Positions 3,429 to 20,410 of a stretch of DNA of 20,410 bases are shown piece by piece. The notes below the pieces were generated by a model. That model saw nothing but the letters and a program-made list of their open reading frames with translations. It made no database searches and was not told the origin of the DNA. Both the position numbers and the translations under genes were made by a program. Positions within the stretch are counted from its first letter, which is position 1. Every line of letters starts with the position of its first letter. The stretch is from IMG/VR virus record IMGVR_UViG_3300019487_000967, positions 1 through 20,410 of that record; one strand, given 5' to 3'. Origin of the DNA: a virus.

Positions 3429-3971
3429 ATGTTAAATGCAATTAAATGGGATTACGCCACAACACAAGTTGATTTACCAGAATTGGAGAATCCAATAAAG
3501 AGTTGGGTAAAGAAAAATCTTAAAAGAGACTGGTTAGCTCCGGATGGTCTAGAAAAAAATCCTCATGTAACGTTACTTTATGGACTATTAAGTGATAATC
3601 CAGGGCAAACTAAACCAATAGCTAAACAATTTGGAAAAACTATAACACTTACATTAGATGAACTTGACTTTTTCTCAAAACCAGATCATGATGTTCTCTT
3701 TATCTCAGTAGCTAGTAAGGACTTACATAAATTACAGCAAGCATTAGATAAATTACCTAATGAAACTGATTATAAATTATATAAGCCACATGTTACAATA
3801 GCTTATCTTAAGAAGGGTTACGCTAAACAATTTAAAGGACAAAAACCATTCAAAGAAATAATTACTAAAAATGGATTCACTTTTGGTAAAAGAGATGATA
3901 CTAAAGAATTTATACCAACAATAGAAAGATCACCACTTTTTGGCGACCTTCAAAATCAAAATCCCCTATAA
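3429..3971 (+). CDS. 2H phosphoesterase superfamily protein (2'-5' RNA ligase / cyclic phosphodiesterase-like)
   Basis: 180 aa with the two HxT motifs that define the 2H superfamily: PHVTLLYG (H46, T48) and PHVTIAYL (H121, T123). The two His/Thr pairs form the symmetric active site that cleaves 2',3'-cyclic or 2'-5' phosphodiester bonds. Known members include CPDases, 2'-5' RNA ligases, viral 2'-5' phosphodiesterases and the phage anti-CBASS nuclease Acb1. The histidines of T4 Acb1 (about residues 44 and 113) have comparable placement, so counter-defence against cyclic oligonucleotide signals is an attractive alternative to RNA repair, but sequence alone does not decide. It sits three bases after the 82-aa gene in the rightward cluster. 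Confidence 0.85.
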   Translation: MLNAIKWDYATTQVDLPELENPIKSWVKKNLKRDWLAPDGLEKNPHVTLLYGLLSDNPGQTKPIAKQFGKTITLTLDELDFFSKPDHDVLFISVASKDLHKLQQALDKLPNETDYKLYKPHVTIAYLKKGYAKQFKGQKPFKEIITKNGFTFGKRDDTKEFIPTIERSPLFGDLQNQNPL

Positions 3972-5052: not shown

Positions 5053-5121
5053 ATGTAGCTATAATGGTATTGTAAACTAGTTTATACAACCATTATTTGA
5101 AAGGTAATTTAAAGCTACATG
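5053..5121 (+). promoter_or_regulatory. Long bulged stem over the portal ribosome binding site and start codon
   Basis: In the 95-base gap before the portal gene, ATGTAGCT (5053-5060) pairs perfectly with AGCTACAT (5113-5120), and the adjoining ATAATGGT (5061-5068) pairs perfectly with ACCATTAT (5089-5096). The apical part holds the palindrome AAACTAGTTT. The 16 bases between the two 3' strands (5097-5112) contain the Shine-Dalgarno GAAAGG and would bulge out. The first two bases of the portal ATG (5119-5121) are in the outer stem. The structure could therefore modulate portal translation. Pairing is seen; regulation is inferred. Confidence 0.55.
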
Positions 5122-7428
5122 GGATTACGTGACGAAGCTATTAATGCACTTCGTAGAGTATTTGGCCGTAAAAGAGATGAAATAGATAAAGCTCTTTCGC
5201 CATCTCTAGAAGCAGAAAGAAATCTACCGTCTTCTCTTACTTCAATGTGGGGCAGAGATGATATTGGTGGCCTTCTTACGCTTTCACAAAATTTGATGGA
5301 TAGATACGCTGACGCGGAGTCCATGAAAGAATACCCTGACATCGCGTGCTTTGCAGGTGACTCAATAGTTTATACTACAGATGGTTCAATGGTAAAACCA
5401 GTTACAATTGAATCACTCGCTTTTGATGATGCCGCTGTTTCAATTTTAGTTTACGATAGAGAATCTTGTAGAATAACGAAGGCACCAGCTATTGCACCAA
5501 GATTAACTGGTATAAATCAAACTATATATAAGATACCACTTTCTAATGGATCTAAACTTCGTGTCACCAAAGATCACAAAATTCTTCATAGAGAAAAAGG
5601 TTATGTAAACGCAGAGACATTACAACCCGGCGACGAAGTAGTTAGTATGTATCCTGGCTTTAATGTTAACTCTATGAGTTTCTTAATGCATCATCGTTGT
5701 GGCTATACTACAGTTTTAGCTGCACCAGAAGAAGATGGAACTTCGCGTGTTTTTGATGTTACAACTGAAACACATAACTTAATTGTTAACGGTGTAGTCT
5801 GTCATAATTCTGCATTCTTTTATTTTGCTAATGATTCTACGCAACCAGATATAGATACTGGTCGAACTATTTGGGTCACTTCGCAAGATGAATCAACTAA
5901 AAATGCAGCCGATATTTTAATTAAAAAGAAACTTCGTTTAGAAGAAGAGTTATTTCCGATAGCATATGAATTAAGTTGTTACGGAAATTCATTTTCCGAG
6001 GTATTAATTAATGAGAATGGTGTAGTTGCACTCAATGCGTTACCCCCACCCACAGTGCGTAGAATCGAAAGAGCAGATGGTGCGCTTATTGGTTATATCC
6101 AAGATGTTACTGGAAAATTTACTGAAGACACCAAGAATATGAAAGCAGCTCTTGCCGGAAAAGGTGTAGTTCCAGAGCATGTTGCTATGTTTGAAGACTG
6201 GCAAGTAATACATATGCGTTTAAGAGGTACAGAACGCAAGAGTACTTACGGGCGCGGTATAGGAGATAACGCAAGATGGATATGGAAACGATTAGTATTA
6301 CTTGAAGACGCCGTGATGATTCATCGGCTTTTACGAAGTCCTAGCCGTTTTGTTTACACCGTCGATGTAACAGATGTTCCCCCTGATAAAGTTGATTCTT
6401 TTTTAAGAAAAACTAAAATGGAAATTAACAAAAAACCGCTCGTTAATCCAACAAAGAATCAATTAGATTTAAGATTTAATCCTTTGTCCAACGATGAGAA
6501 CGTGCTACTTGCAAGTAGAGATGGAAAGCCTTTAGCAACTGTTCAAACTCTTCAGGGACCAATCTATTCTCACATGGAAGATATTAATTACTTTAAGAGA
6601 ATGCTGCATGGTTGCTTAATGGTTCCGAGGAATTATTTAGGTCAAGAGGGTGCAATACCACAAAAGTCTATTTTGTCATCTGAAGATGTACGGGCGGCAA
6701 AAACTACTTTAACCATTCAAAAAGAAATTAAATTAGGTATCGAACAATTAATTCTAATTGATAAAGCTGCTAGACAAAAAAATCCGTATGAAGTTGATTT
6801 TACAGTTCATATGACAGTGCCATCTGGTATCTATGAACTTGCTCAAATGGAATTAAGAAACGCTAGAGCTGATTTTGCTAGTAGAGTAATGCCACATATG
6901 AGTCAAGAGTGGGTTCGTAGATTCGTATTTAAGCTATCTGATGAAGAGATCGCGGCACTCGATAAACAAACAGATAAAGAGTTCAAAATTCAGTTAGATA
7001 GACAAATGCAACAAATGAAAGCGCAAGCAGAAATTCAGCAATCTATGGCAATGCAACAGCAACAATTAGCTATGCAACAGCAGTCAGAATTACAAGGAAA
7101 TGCACCTCCTGGTAGCACACCAGACGGTCCTATGCCTTTAATGCCAGGAAATGATTTACCAAGGACAGCATTAGAGATGAAAATAATTGACAATCAAAAA
7201 CGTATTGAAGAAAAACGCCGCAAAGAGACAGATTCTAGGTTGGCTGAACTAGAAGATAAGTATAATGATTTATTAGTTACCGATCGCGCGTTCGCTAAGA
7301 AACTAGCTGAACGTCAAGATTTTATACAAGAAGTAAAAGATGCTGCTTTATATAAGAGTAATGGTGTGATACATGCTGTGCCATCACATAACGGTCACAG
7401 CAATGGTATTCCAAGATATGAACTTTAA
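5119..7428 (+). CDS. Portal vertex protein (T4 gp20-like) containing an in-frame intein
   Basis: 769 aa precursor. The exteins (1-76 and 231-769, 615 aa after splicing) match the T4 gp20 portal family: the YPDIA...SAFFYFANDST segment (T4-like YPEI..AL..YADEAT), LLEDAVMIHRLLRSPSRFVYTVDV, a segment with DINYFKRMLHGCLMVPRNYL, and SSEDVRAAKTTLTIQKEI. The portal forms the dodecameric ring at one capsid vertex, through which DNA is packaged and to which the tail attaches. A Gln/Met-rich stretch (about 630-665) and a helical, charged C-terminal region follow. An intein occupies 77-230 and must be removed to restore the conserved segment. GAAAGG lies upstream of the ATG within a bulged stem. The stop overlaps the next gene (TAATG). 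Confidence 0.93.
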   Translation: MGLRDEAINALRRVFGRKRDEIDKALSPSLEAERNLPSSLTSMWGRDDIGGLLTLSQNLMDRYADAESMKEYPDIACFAGDSIVYTTDGSMVKPVTIESLAFDDAAVSILVYDRESCRITKAPAIAPRLTGINQTIYKIPLSNGSKLRVTKDHKILHREKGYVNAETLQPGDEVVSMYPGFNVNSMSFLMHHRCGYTTVLAAPEEDGTSRVFDVTTETHNLIVNGVVCHNSAFFYFANDSTQPDIDTGRTIWVTSQDESTKNAADILIKKKLRLEEELFPIAYELSCYGNSFSEVLINENGVVALNALPPPTVRRIERADGALIGYIQDVTGKFTEDTKNMKAALAGKGVVPEHVAMFEDWQVIHMRLRGTERKSTYGRGIGDNARWIWKRLVLLEDAVMIHRLLRSPSRFVYTVDVTDVPPDKVDSFLRKTKMEINKKPLVNPTKNQLDLRFNPLSNDENVLLASRDGKPLATVQTLQGPIYSHMEDINYFKRMLHGCLMVPRNYLGQEGAIPQKSILSSEDVRAAKTTLTIQKEIKLGIEQLILIDKAARQKNPYEVDFTVHMTVPSGIYELAQMELRNARADFASRVMPHMSQEWVRRFVFKLSDEEIAALDKQTDKEFKIQLDRQMQQMKAQAEIQQSMAMQQQQLAMQQQSELQGNAPPGSTPDGPMPLMPGNDLPRTALEMKIIDNQKRIEEKRRKETDSRLAELEDKYNDLLVTDRAFAKKLAERQDFIQEVKDAALYKSNGVIHAVPSHNGHSNGIPRYEL
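5347..5808 (+). other. Mini-intein in the portal protein (154 aa, no endonuclease domain)
   Basis: Residues 77-230 of the portal precursor. The intein starts with C77 (CFAGDSIV, block A). It has a block B pattern RVTKDHKIL with T150 and H153, a block F segment (FDVTTETHNLIVNGV) and ends with VVCHN before S231, giving penultimate His, terminal Asn and a +1 Ser nucleophile. All residues needed for standard class 1 protein splicing are present. The short distance between blocks B and F leaves no room for a LAGLIDADG or HNH homing domain, so it is a mini-intein. Removal joins ...YPDIA to SAFFYF..., restoring a conserved gp20 helix. Activity is inferred from intact motifs. Confidence 0.93.
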
Positions 7429-9648: not shown

Positions 9649-10293
9649 TCAAACCAACCAAGTAACTACAGCATATTTTGTGCCTGAAAGAATTGGCAGA
9701 GATTCGTGTGGGTACATAAATTCTGATGGAAACATTAGAATATCGCCCACATCTGGTTTAAGCATCATACCGTGTCTTGGGAAGTTTAATTCACCGCCAG
9801 TGTAATTATTGTTTAGATAAATTAGCATAGAAAGTCTTCTTCTATTAAACTTATCTGAGTTGTAAATGATGTCCACATGGGGGCCAAAGAATTGCCCCGC
9901 TTCATATTTTAAAAGCTCATAACCTGTATCGTGCGATAGCACACAATCTTTATTAATTTGTCGATATAATTGAGATGCATTAGCAACAAAGGACGCTATA
10001 CAATTTTGAAATCTCTCCAAGCTTGGATCTCTCGAAGAGTGAATAAACATATTTTGACTTGATCTAAAATTAGTATCTTGATAAGCATTATTGCCATTAA
10101 CAACGGTTGCTTGAAAAAATAGATCTGGTCTTTGCTTAGAAAATTCTATTAATTCTTCTCCAAATGGAAACATTCGATTAAGAACGATAATAAATCCTTT
10201 ATCTTCAAGAAAATAATCAACTGTCTTAGAGAACTCTTTACCCTCTAAATCTAATAAACTAGAAAATGAAGCTTTTTGTTCTAAGACAGCCAT
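9649..10293 (-). CDS. 2-oxoglutarate/Fe(II)-dependent oxygenase (prolyl hydroxylase-like), copy 2
   Basis: 214 aa. The double-stranded beta-helix signature is complete: H139 and D141 in FGPHVDII and H196 in YPHESLPI as the iron triad, with K206 in GTKYAVVTW as the expected 2-oxoglutarate carboxylate ligand. YTGGELNFP and GDILMFPS are typical of the P4H/2OG-FeII_Oxy family. These enzymes hydroxylate protein side chains or nucleic acid bases; the form here is closest to prolyl hydroxylase-like phage enzymes. It is a tandem paralog of the next upstream gene, with equal length and identical catalytic positions, and overlaps it by 13 bases. It is last in the leftward tail cluster. Confidence 0.9.
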   Translation of the reverse strand: MAVLEQKASFSSLLDLEGKEFSKTVDYFLEDKGFIIVLNRMFPFGEELIEFSKQRPDLFFQATVVNGNNAYQDTNFRSSQNMFIHSSRDPSLERFQNCIASFVANASQLYRQINKDCVLSHDTGYELLKYEAGQFFGPHVDIIYNSDKFNRRRLSMLIYLNNNYTGGELNFPRHGMMLKPDVGDILMFPSEFMYPHESLPILSGTKYAVVTWLV

Positions 10294-10925
10294 GATACCG
10301 CACTATATTTAGTTCCTTTAGTGACTGGAAGAGAGGCGTGGGGATAACAAAAGTTAGATGGAAACATTAATATTGTTCCAGCTTTTGGTTTTAACTTAAC
10401 ATTTTGTTTACTAAATAGTAATTCGCCACCCTCATAGTTATCATTAATATAAAATATAATAGAAAGAACACGCTTACTAAATTCAGCATGGCCTTTTATG
10501 GTATCAACATGCATTTTAAATTCTTGCCCAACTTCATAACGAAGTAAATCAAGTGAAGACATCTCATCTACTACTATAAAATCATTATGTGTTCTATAAA
10601 CTTTTAAAGTGATATCTACCAAACCACGCAATATTTCTTCAAATTTTGCATAATTTTCATCTAAACCACCAAGAAGTGGTAAACCGCTGTTTGAGCGAAT
10701 ATTTTGGTCAATAAATGCTTCATGCTTATAATTATTTGCTATTGTAGCATCTTTCCAATGATCTTTTGAGGAAGTTACTTCAATAAGCTTATCGCCAAAA
10801 TTAAATGCATCTTCTATTAATAAGATAGTATCATTACAAAGAAATCTTACTCTTGCTTCTTTATCATATACTATATCATCTATTTTATAATTTAATCCCA
10901 GCTTTCCTTCTCTTTCTAAATTCAT
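10281..10925 (-). CDS. 2-oxoglutarate/Fe(II)-dependent oxygenase (prolyl hydroxylase-like), copy 1
   Basis: 214 aa, with iron ligands H139 and D141 (FKMHVDTI) and H196 (YPHASLPV) and the 2-oxoglutarate ligand K206 (GTKYSAVSW), at exactly the residue numbers of its downstream paralog. NYEGGELLF and GTILMFPS are family hallmarks. Outside the catalytic core the two copies have diverged strongly, which suggests an old duplication with separate substrates, or one enzyme for each of two sites. The ATG overlaps the stop of the Cys-cluster gene (ATGA), placing it in the same translational unit as the virion genes upstream. A virion protein is therefore a plausible substrate (inference). Confidence 0.9.
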   Translation of the reverse strand: MNLEREGKLGLNYKIDDIVYDKEARVRFLCNDTILLIEDAFNFGDKLIEVTSSKDHWKDATIANNYKHEAFIDQNIRSNSGLPLLGGLDENYAKFEEILRGLVDITLKVYRTHNDFIVVDEMSSLDLLRYEVGQEFKMHVDTIKGHAEFSKRVLSIIFYINDNYEGGELLFSKQNVKLKPKAGTILMFPSNFCYPHASLPVTKGTKYSAVSWLS

Positions 10926-18757: not shown

Positions 18758-19550
18758 TTACTGAGCTTCGATTACTTCGATATCGAATTCTTCACAAACT
18801 AATTTCATGCTTTGTACGCTAACTTCTGATGAACTAGCGTCATGATCATTAGTTGGTTTAAAATTCATAGCAAAAGCTTCTTTAAGTCTAATTAATCTAC
18901 TTGGTGCTCCGTTAATACCTAATTCATCACCAATATGATATTCGACAATCGTAACATCTGAACGATATGTCTCACCACCATCAATACACTTAAGTACCCA
19001 AACGAAGAAGTCACTAGCTTTCTTAATGACACCCTTCGTTAATTCAATATCACCAATTTTTGGTATACCCGGATACTTTCGAGTGTATTTGAATACACCT
19101 TCGCGATATTCAGCTACAGCTACATCGACATCTGGTACAGAGATCTTGCTAAATCCTGCATTTATATCGAGGAAATTTTGTCCTTCGATGAAATGAAATC
19201 TAAAGCTCATTAATCTTACAAATAAGTCGTTTCCACTTATTTTCTGCAACTTTCGAGGCAGATGAGACTATATCATAATCTTATATTTAAGATTCCTCAC
19301 CTTTCGAACTTACTTAAGTTCTACTTCCTTACGGAATAGTCGTTGAACCTTTCGCTATTTAATAGCAACTTGGCTGCTGATTGTCTAATTCTAGAATTTC
19401 TTAAAGCTTTCACACTTAACATTTGCAGTTTATGTTGTAGCATTCTAGACTCTAAAGATTTTCCAGCAGTTAGTGAGATTTTCACTAAGATCATAAGTCT
19501 TAGTGCCACATTTATTTATGGTAAAGATCAGATTCTATGGACCTCGCCAT
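18758..19550 (-). CDS. Tail tube protein (T4 gp19-like), split by a group I intron
   Basis: Proposed join of exon 1 (19550-19518, 11 codons, MARSIESDLYH) and exon 2 (19207-18758), giving 160 aa, close to T4 gp19 (163 aa). Exon 1 has an excellent ribosome binding site (AAAGGAG, eight bases before ATG). The joined N-terminus MARSIESDLYHSFRFHF parallels the adjacent paralog (MAR...PLSSFNF) and the DPYxxFxF start usual for tube proteins. Downstream are EYREGVFKYTRKYPGIPK, a central helix (ASDFFVWVLKC) and a C-terminal strand SSSEVSVQSMKLVCEEFDI, all family hallmarks. The tube is the inner channel of the contractile tail. The unspliced reading frame before SFRF has only a TTG or a poor ATG and runs through intron structure, so it is not the true N-terminus. 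The exact splice sites are inferred. Confidence 0.88.
19208..19517 (-). ncRNA. ORF-less group I self-splicing intron (about 310 nt, IA-like) in the tail tube gene
   Basis: On the minus strand the whole core can be traced. P1: exon end CCAT pairs with GTGG (19504-19501 region), with a U-G pair at the splice site. P2: CACTAAG/CTTAGTG. P3: CTCAC (19477-19473) with GTGAG (19300-19296). P4: CTGCTG (19469-19464) with CAGCAG (19379-19374). P5: TCTAGAAT/ATTCTAGA. The Q-like segment reads AATCAGCAGCCAAG. P6: GCTAT/ATAGC. The R-like segment reads GGTTCAACGACTAT. P7: GACTAT (19341-19336) with ATAGTC (19271-19266) in ATGATATAGTC. P7.1: TTCC-GTAA-GGAA. P7.2: AACTT/AAGTT. P8: ATCTTA/TAAGAT (19293-19278). 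P9: AAATAAGT/ACTTATTT. The last intron base is G (19208). The extra P7.1/P7.2 stems suggest subgroup IA. No ORF of its own. Confidence 0.93.
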
Positions 19551-19552
19551 AT

Positions 19553-20410
19553 TTATTTCTCCTTTAATTTTGATTTACCCGGCAATATATTAAGTTCCCT
19601 CATATCCTTATAATGCCATATTTGAAGATTTAAGTCCTTTCTATTCTCTTTTAGGTAGTTTATTTTTAAAAATTGTTTTTCATTAATTTTTCCTTTAATA
19701 TCTATTATAACATTTTTACCATTATAATTGTATAACCAAAAATCTGGAGTGTAACGTTTTATTTCATTACCTAAAGGAATATAATAAGTTTCTTTTTCGT
19801 AATCCCATTGGATATTATTCTTATCTAGCCACTTTGCCATTGCTAATTCCCAGAAAGATCTAAATTTAAAACTTCTACCTCTGGAATCCGTATAAGTTGG
19901 TCGTAATTTGGGGCCACCATAAGCTGGATTCCTTGTTTCAACTTTTCTTCTTCTTAAAATTAAGAGGATAGCAGATACAGAAGTTTGTTCTTGAAAAGCA
20001 AGATCAATAATATCTTTTCCATTTAGATAATCGGAAGCAATTTTTTCTTCCTCCTCATCAGTGCGCAAACGGCACCTATTTCCAGTTTTTCCAACTTTAA
20101 TGTTATTTTCTCTTAAAACATCATAAATGGCGTCGAGACCTGTGTTTATATTTAATTTCTGCTTTATTTTGGAAACAGATAAATTTGTTGTATTGTATAA
20201 ATTTAAAATTTCTTTTTCTTGTTCAATGTTTAATTTTTTATGTGTTGAATTTTTATGTTCAAGACCTATTCCAAGTTTAAAAGCACGTTGCATTATACTT
20301 TTATATTTTCTATTTGATAATTTCTTCGCAACACCTCTACTCCCTAAAGTTGGATAGAGTTCTTTTATTATTGCGTCTTCTGCTGTTGTCCATTGATTTT
20401 CCCAGCCCAT
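19553..20410 (-). CDS. Free-standing homing endonuclease, PD-(D/E)XK nuclease domain
   Basis: 285 aa. The N-terminal 110 residues contain DNA-binding helices: a SANT/Myb-like segment (WTTAEDAIIKELYPTLG...VAKKLSNRKYKSIMQRAFKLGI) and a helix-turn-helix-like part (LSVSKIKQKLNI). Another helical unit follows (about 118-158). The C-terminal nuclease domain starts with FRSFWELAMAKWLD (E188) and has RYTPDFWL (P222-D223) and VIIDIKGK (D237, K239), a PD-(D/E)XK catalytic set. This layout is seen in phage homing endonucleases related to the EDxHD/PD-(D/E)XK group. The stop codon ends two bases before the tail tube ATG, and the last codons supply its ribosome binding site. The ATG is at the window edge, so its own leader is not visible. 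Likely target: intronless tail tube genes. Confidence 0.85.
   Translation of the reverse strand: MGWENQWTTAEDAIIKELYPTLGSRGVAKKLSNRKYKSIMQRAFKLGIGLEHKNSTHKKLNIEQEKEILNLYNTTNLSVSKIKQKLNINTGLDAIYDVLRENNIKVGKTGNRCRLRTDEEEEKIASDYLNGKDIIDLAFQEQTSVSAILLILRRRKVETRNPAYGGPKLRPTYTDSRGRSFKFRSFWELAMAKWLDKNNIQWDYEKETYYIPLGNEIKRYTPDFWLYNYNGKNVIIDIKGKINEKQFLKINYLKENRKDLNLQIWHYKDMRELNILPGKSKLKEK

Follow-up and report, generated by a model that had tools for sequence, protein, structure and literature searches.

What interrupts the portal gene of this phage, can a working portal be made from it, and how did the interruption come to lie there? The window, which is the whole stretch of DNA analysed here, corresponds to an entire IMG/VR virus record of 20,410 bp. 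Its 769-aa portal ORF encodes a T4-type (gp20) portal protein, the kind that forms the ring by which DNA passes into the virus head, as judged by matches to Portal_T4 (PF07230, E 4.9e-42) and to the phrog_213 portal family (E 1.8e-39). The Portal_T4 match spans profile positions 33-433 of 433, taking in most of the C-extein, and the C-extein by itself matches the solved structure of T4 gp20 (3ja7, E 1.2e-12). The same single open frame also contains a match to the splicing domain of inteins.

A complete class 1 mini-intein

The Pfam family Intein_splicing (PF14890) matches precursor residues 77-230 with 43.9 bits (E 2.7e-11), exceeding the curated gathering cut-off of 35.8 bits. The residues that define a class 1 intein are all present, namely C1, T74 and H77, D137 and H143, the terminal pair H153-N154 and a +1 Ser (Table 1). 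Block B reads T74-K-D-H77, and its Thr and His are invariant in intein alignments A2 and A3. A domain search of the 154 aa detected no endonuclease domain, whether HNH, LAGLIDADG or other. With splicing blocks that lack an intervening homing endonuclease domain, the element is a mini-intein; it is not a mobile (homing) intein, as its own homing endonuclease is absent.

The original prediction, made from the sequence, was of an endonuclease-free mini-intein starting at C77 (codon 5347-5349) and ending at 5808, with T150, H153, H229, N230 and the +1 residue S231 as its splicing residues. These coordinates and residues proved exact, and the description was borne out by the complete set of splicing residues and the undetected endonuclease domain. 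D137 and H143 of block F, which had not been listed, are likewise present, and the arithmetic of the proposed 615-aa ligated product is right (769-154).

Table 1. Coordinates in the window of the interrupted portal gene and of the parts of its intein
Feature	Position	Strand	Basis or remark
Interrupted portal gene, T4 gp20-like	5119-7428	+	Precursor of 769 aa; 615 aa predicted after ligation
N-extein, 76 aa, C-terminal end ...EYPDIA	5119-5346	+	Alignment to DYExMDxDPIIA in relatives with an empty site
Class 1 mini-intein, 154 aa, CFAGDS...VVCHN	5347-5808	+	Intein_splicing; AlphaFold; Foldseek
Block A nucleophile Cys1 (precursor C77)	5347-5349	+	Sequence; invariant in intein alignments
Block B Thr-x-x-His, T74/H77 (precursor T150/H153)	5566-5577	+	Sequence; invariant columns
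Low-confidence linker, intein residues 101-118	5647-5700	+	pLDDT; HNH insertion point in alignment A2
Block F VFDVTTETH (V135-H143), D137 and H143	5749-5775	+	D137 invariant in alignments; sequence
Block G His153-Asn154 and +1 Ser (C-extein residue 1)	5803-5811	+	Sequence
C-extein, N-terminal start SAFFYFANDSTQ, portal body	5809-7425	+	Portal_T4; 3ja7 match

Assignment to class 3 was rejected, since C1 is present and the WCT triad (B:12, F:4, G:5) is absent; position F:4 is D137, and the residue preceding the penultimate His is C152. A search at the DNA level of viral contigs, species genomes and plasmids returned no close relatives of the intein itself. GC3 is 0.18 in the intein versus 0.23-0.31 in C-extein windows of equal length. 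The intein is slightly AT-richer than the C-extein, a signal too weak for dating the insertion.

An AlphaFold2 model of the intein, built with eight intein relatives, reached a pLDDT of 88 and a pTM of 0.83, with only residues 101-120 in doubt (pLDDT 56-65), and confidently predicts a Hint (HINT) fold. For this model Foldseek returned 60 PDB matches at E <= 0.001, of which the inteins NrdJ-1, Npu DnaB and Mtu RecA rank best, with TM 0.80-0.82 and E values as low as 6.9e-10. Where its matches to predicted viral proteins had names, most were terminases, polymerases, helicases and Hint proteins of phages. The AlphaFold model of the full precursor, made with 32 portals, is of low confidence (pLDDT 65, pTM 0.49) and places the intein between helix halves 47-70 and 229-240. 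The Pfam score, the Hint fold and the boundaries confirm, well past chance, that the insert is an intein.

The insertion site is empty in most relatives

The joined exteins read ...YADAESMKEYPDIA/SAFFYFANDSTQPD... (the slash marks the junction) and align to insert-free phages without a gap at the junction; examples aligned across it are immuto (DYEAMDTDPLIA/STLDILADEST) and SP-15 (EYENMANDVFIA/SALELYADDAV). Removal of the intein restores PDIA/SAFFYFAND, the equivalent of PIIA/SALDIYADES in one of the best conserved portal helices, and few stretches of the portal are as well conserved as DYExMDxDxIIxSALDIYADES. Both intein boundaries fall in a stretch that is uninterrupted in about 75 aligned portal homologues, and the +1 residue (Ser, Thr or Ala) is native to the site in empty-site relatives. 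A profile scan of IMG/VR yielded 80 portal loci, and at the 78 where the site could be read it was empty in 75 and occupied in three. The empty site that the original prediction had proposed to seek in portal relatives does exist, and the portal alignments agree with its placement of the insert in a highly conserved gp20-type helix. A bacterial intein-like or free Hint domain was considered and rejected on account of the +1 Ser and because the gene is conserved and its empty site exact.

Proposed splicing of the precursor

Class 1 chemistry leads us to expect that the precursor would splice itself (PMC7765530). In the proposed reaction, Cys1 would attack the Ala(-1)-Cys1 bond, aided by Thr74 and His77 of block B and Asp137 of block F, and the N-extein would be transferred onto the side chain of the +1 Ser. 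Asn154 would then cyclise with the help of His153, and an O-N acyl shift would join PDIA to SAFF. The expected products are a portal of 615 aa and an excised intein of 154 aa. It can soundly be inferred that splicing is required for a working portal and for head assembly.

Splicing of the window's intein is a prediction from sequence and the contig is a 20-kb fragment, so one might picture a decayed or intein-like Hint domain, dead for splicing, in a broken portal gene or in an assembly artefact. We find this scarcely credible: all 769 codons are open, the splicing residues are all intact, the +1 Ser is native to the site, the fold is confident and the portal C-extein is conserved, while allelic inteins at the same bond occur in several independent assemblies. 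It is highly probable, from the sequence evidence assembled here, that the T4-type portal carries a cis-splicing class 1 mini-intein, which would most likely derive from a mobile element, as its fixed remnant or as a cargo allele.

Other inteins in the portal helix

Full-length inteins occupy the identical bond (site a) in six related IMG/VR contigs, with lengths of 359 aa in L013 and L090, 351 in L018, 355 in L091, 469 in L092 and 432 in L082. Their junctions read [EI]IA/[ST]ALD or SAID, and the alleles scanned contain Intein_splicing and HNH_3 domains, some of them slightly below the curated cut-off. These inteins share gene family, bond and Hint domain with the window's intein, and both have junctions of the type C...HN (or SN) followed by a +1 S or T. 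They differ in that the same-bond inteins are 351-469 aa long and carry HNH_3, with HTH matches also in L013, L018 and L091, whereas the window's intein has neither in its 154 aa; the splicing domains are 25-33% identical. In alignment A2 the HNH domain of the alleles falls at the short linker of the 154-aa intein. The LMHHR of this linker recalls the VHH of HNH inteins over a few residues only, and we do not claim it as an HNH relic.

L011 is an empty sister of L013, with flanks of 87% DNA identity and the 1077-nt intein cleanly absent. Between L013 and L090, dN/dS is about 0.08 in the intein and about 0.03 in the C-extein, and this intein is under strong purifying selection. The site-a intein of L082 (L082:3705-5000, +) ends in SN rather than HN (MIVSN/S); a non-canonical penultimate residue has been reported for some mycobacteriophage inteins. 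Each of L018 and L091 has a second, LAGLIDADG intein at another portal site, and the portals of L091 and L092 run into a further intein at the contig end. HNH and LAGLIDADG inteins are thus mixed in single portals, two in L018 (L018:1878-6026) and three in L091 (L091:3-4616, -).

The huge phage LR756511 (595 kb) also has a class 1 intein in the same conserved helix of a T4-type portal, and this is the best BLAST match of the window's intein (34.6% over 104 aa). It differs in its site (ADEA/C, about ten residues downstream), in its +1 Cys and in its 232-aa length; its insert is degraded and yields no match to HNH. Because of the same-bond HNH inteins and the LR756511 intein nearby, the conserved helix can be called a recurrent intein target, of which the window's portal holds what reads as an endonuclease-free form.

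Endonuclease loss or separate invasion

Mini-inteins as such are well established, and loss of the endonuclease is their usual explanation (PMC7765530); we infer that the window's intein may have descended in this way. The trees, built from two splicing-domain alignments of about 140 columns, do not support an origin from the HNH alleles. In both, the 154-aa intein forms a long, poorly placed branch. Its weakly supported neighbours (bootstrap 78-80) are LAGLIDADG portal inteins of other sites along with the ME3 TerL mini-intein, apart from the HNH inteins of site a.

The alternative is that a different intein, perhaps one already free of endonuclease or of the LAGLIDADG type, entered the same hotspot, in which case the window's intein would not be an HNH allele stripped of its endonuclease. 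We give this nearly even chances. Besides its nearer placement to the LAGLIDADG and ME3 inteins, uniting all site-a inteins in one clade is weakly rejected (p-AU 0.009 and 0.036 in the two alignments), and the best pairwise BLAST scores go to inteins of other sites or other genes (LR756511 site b, SP-15). However, the trees are built on about 140 columns at 25-33% identity and have long branches, with no starred placement; the tests do not reject a group of the 154-aa intein with the four HNH alleles nearest to it (p-AU 0.36 and 0.21), and the linker coincides with the HNH position of the alleles. A single origin of all site-a inteins is unsupported in these poorly resolved trees.

Persistence of the intein

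In the absence of an endonuclease, the window's intein would be unable to home by itself. It would persist because an essential, highly conserved helix tolerates only its precise removal. The presence of HNH inteins at this bond in relatives speaks more for ordinary homing with later loss of the endonuclease (or for separate invasion) than for a regulatory device.

The window's intein has four cysteines (1, 41, 118 and 152), of which C152 adjoins the HN terminus, and they could in principle form a redox trap; conditional inteins are on record. A regulatory role has been proposed in similar form for the Mic1 TerL inteins (PMC7156551), and by analogy slow or conditional splicing, responding to redox state, temperature or infection stage, could time portal maturation and head assembly. 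We regard such a role as very unlikely, as the catalytic residues are all canonical, the alleles sharing the site bear homing endonucleases, as is characteristic of selfish elements, most relatives are intein-free and the site-a alleles do not conserve C152. A redox switch via the cysteines is possible, with nothing that favours it. Also very improbable would be a once-homing HNH intein, domesticated at a repeatedly invaded helix, whose splicing rate or condition (for example a C1/C152 redox trap) times portal maturation and the start of head assembly.

Other elements on the record

A tail-tube-like gene is interrupted after its eighth codon by a group I intron at 19526-19244 (-), which matches RF00028 with 71.5 bits (E 1e-16). 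Exon 1 occupies 19550-19527 (MARSIESD) and exon 2 (18758-19243) starts from 19243 with KISGNDLFV...; the boundaries were inferred from the Rfam match, and the reading frame is kept across the exons. Directly upstream of exon 1 and outside the intron is an endonuclease-like ORF at 19553-20410 (-), with DNA-binding-protein matches in its N-terminal part and a Phage_endo_I/DUF1064-like nuclease in its C-terminal part. Relatives of this ORF are almost lacking in annotated phages, with one weak match. The layout is like one that has been described as collaborative homing (PMC10448857). The phage carries two kinds of putative self-splicing element, both without an internal endonuclease.

A 2H phosphoesterase (3429-3971, +), encoded two genes upstream of the portal, matches an anti-CBASS Acb1 profile (E 8.5e-08); LR756511 has a 2H phosphoesterase-like ORF between terminase and portal (L003 1544-2116). 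Adjacent 2OG-Fe(II) oxygenase genes at 9649-10293 and 10281-10925 (-), beside the tail genes (PF13640, E 6e-17 and 2e-19), are likely tandem duplicates. An RlaP-like nucleotidyltransferase of the RNA repair pathway polymerase-beta family is found at 1228-2196 (-; E 1e-12).

Relation to known inteins

Inteins in phage packaging genes have mostly been reported from terminases. Terminase inteins are common (PMC7886860, PMC3556154, PMC8228797), and portal-protein inteins (PORT) have been described in mycobacteriophage cluster C1 (PMC5050341); the latter also lie in a phage portal, of another portal group and phage lineage. Our search of the open-access literature brought up no earlier account of inteins in portals of the gp20 type. 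The TerL mini-intein of Acinetobacter phage ME3 is similarly endonuclease-free (137 aa), in a packaging protein and with an IVCHN-type C terminus, but its host is the terminase rather than the portal and its match to the window's intein is partial (residues 58-154). The NrdJ-1 (8ubs), Npu DnaB (4o1r) and Mtu RecA (2imz) inteins share the Hint fold, the class 1 residues and splicing domains of about 140-150 aa without endonuclease, in the case of Mtu RecA only as an engineered construct; they differ in their host proteins and are 19-23% identical.

As both portal inteins and mini-inteins were already known, the window's intein is a new example and not a new mechanism. The modest added value lies in a recurrent portal target site with both endonuclease-bearing and endonuclease-free alleles. 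HNH-positive and HNH-negative alleles at one bond, together with near-identical empty sites, make up a compact set for the study of homing, endonuclease loss and reinvasion, and the 154-aa element is a small intein with a +1 Ser and a candidate for splicing in cis. Portal genes that serve as phage markers may be interrupted, which calls for caution, and several portals hold two or three inteins. The conserved wing-domain helix of T4-type portals emerges as a recurrent target of inteins.
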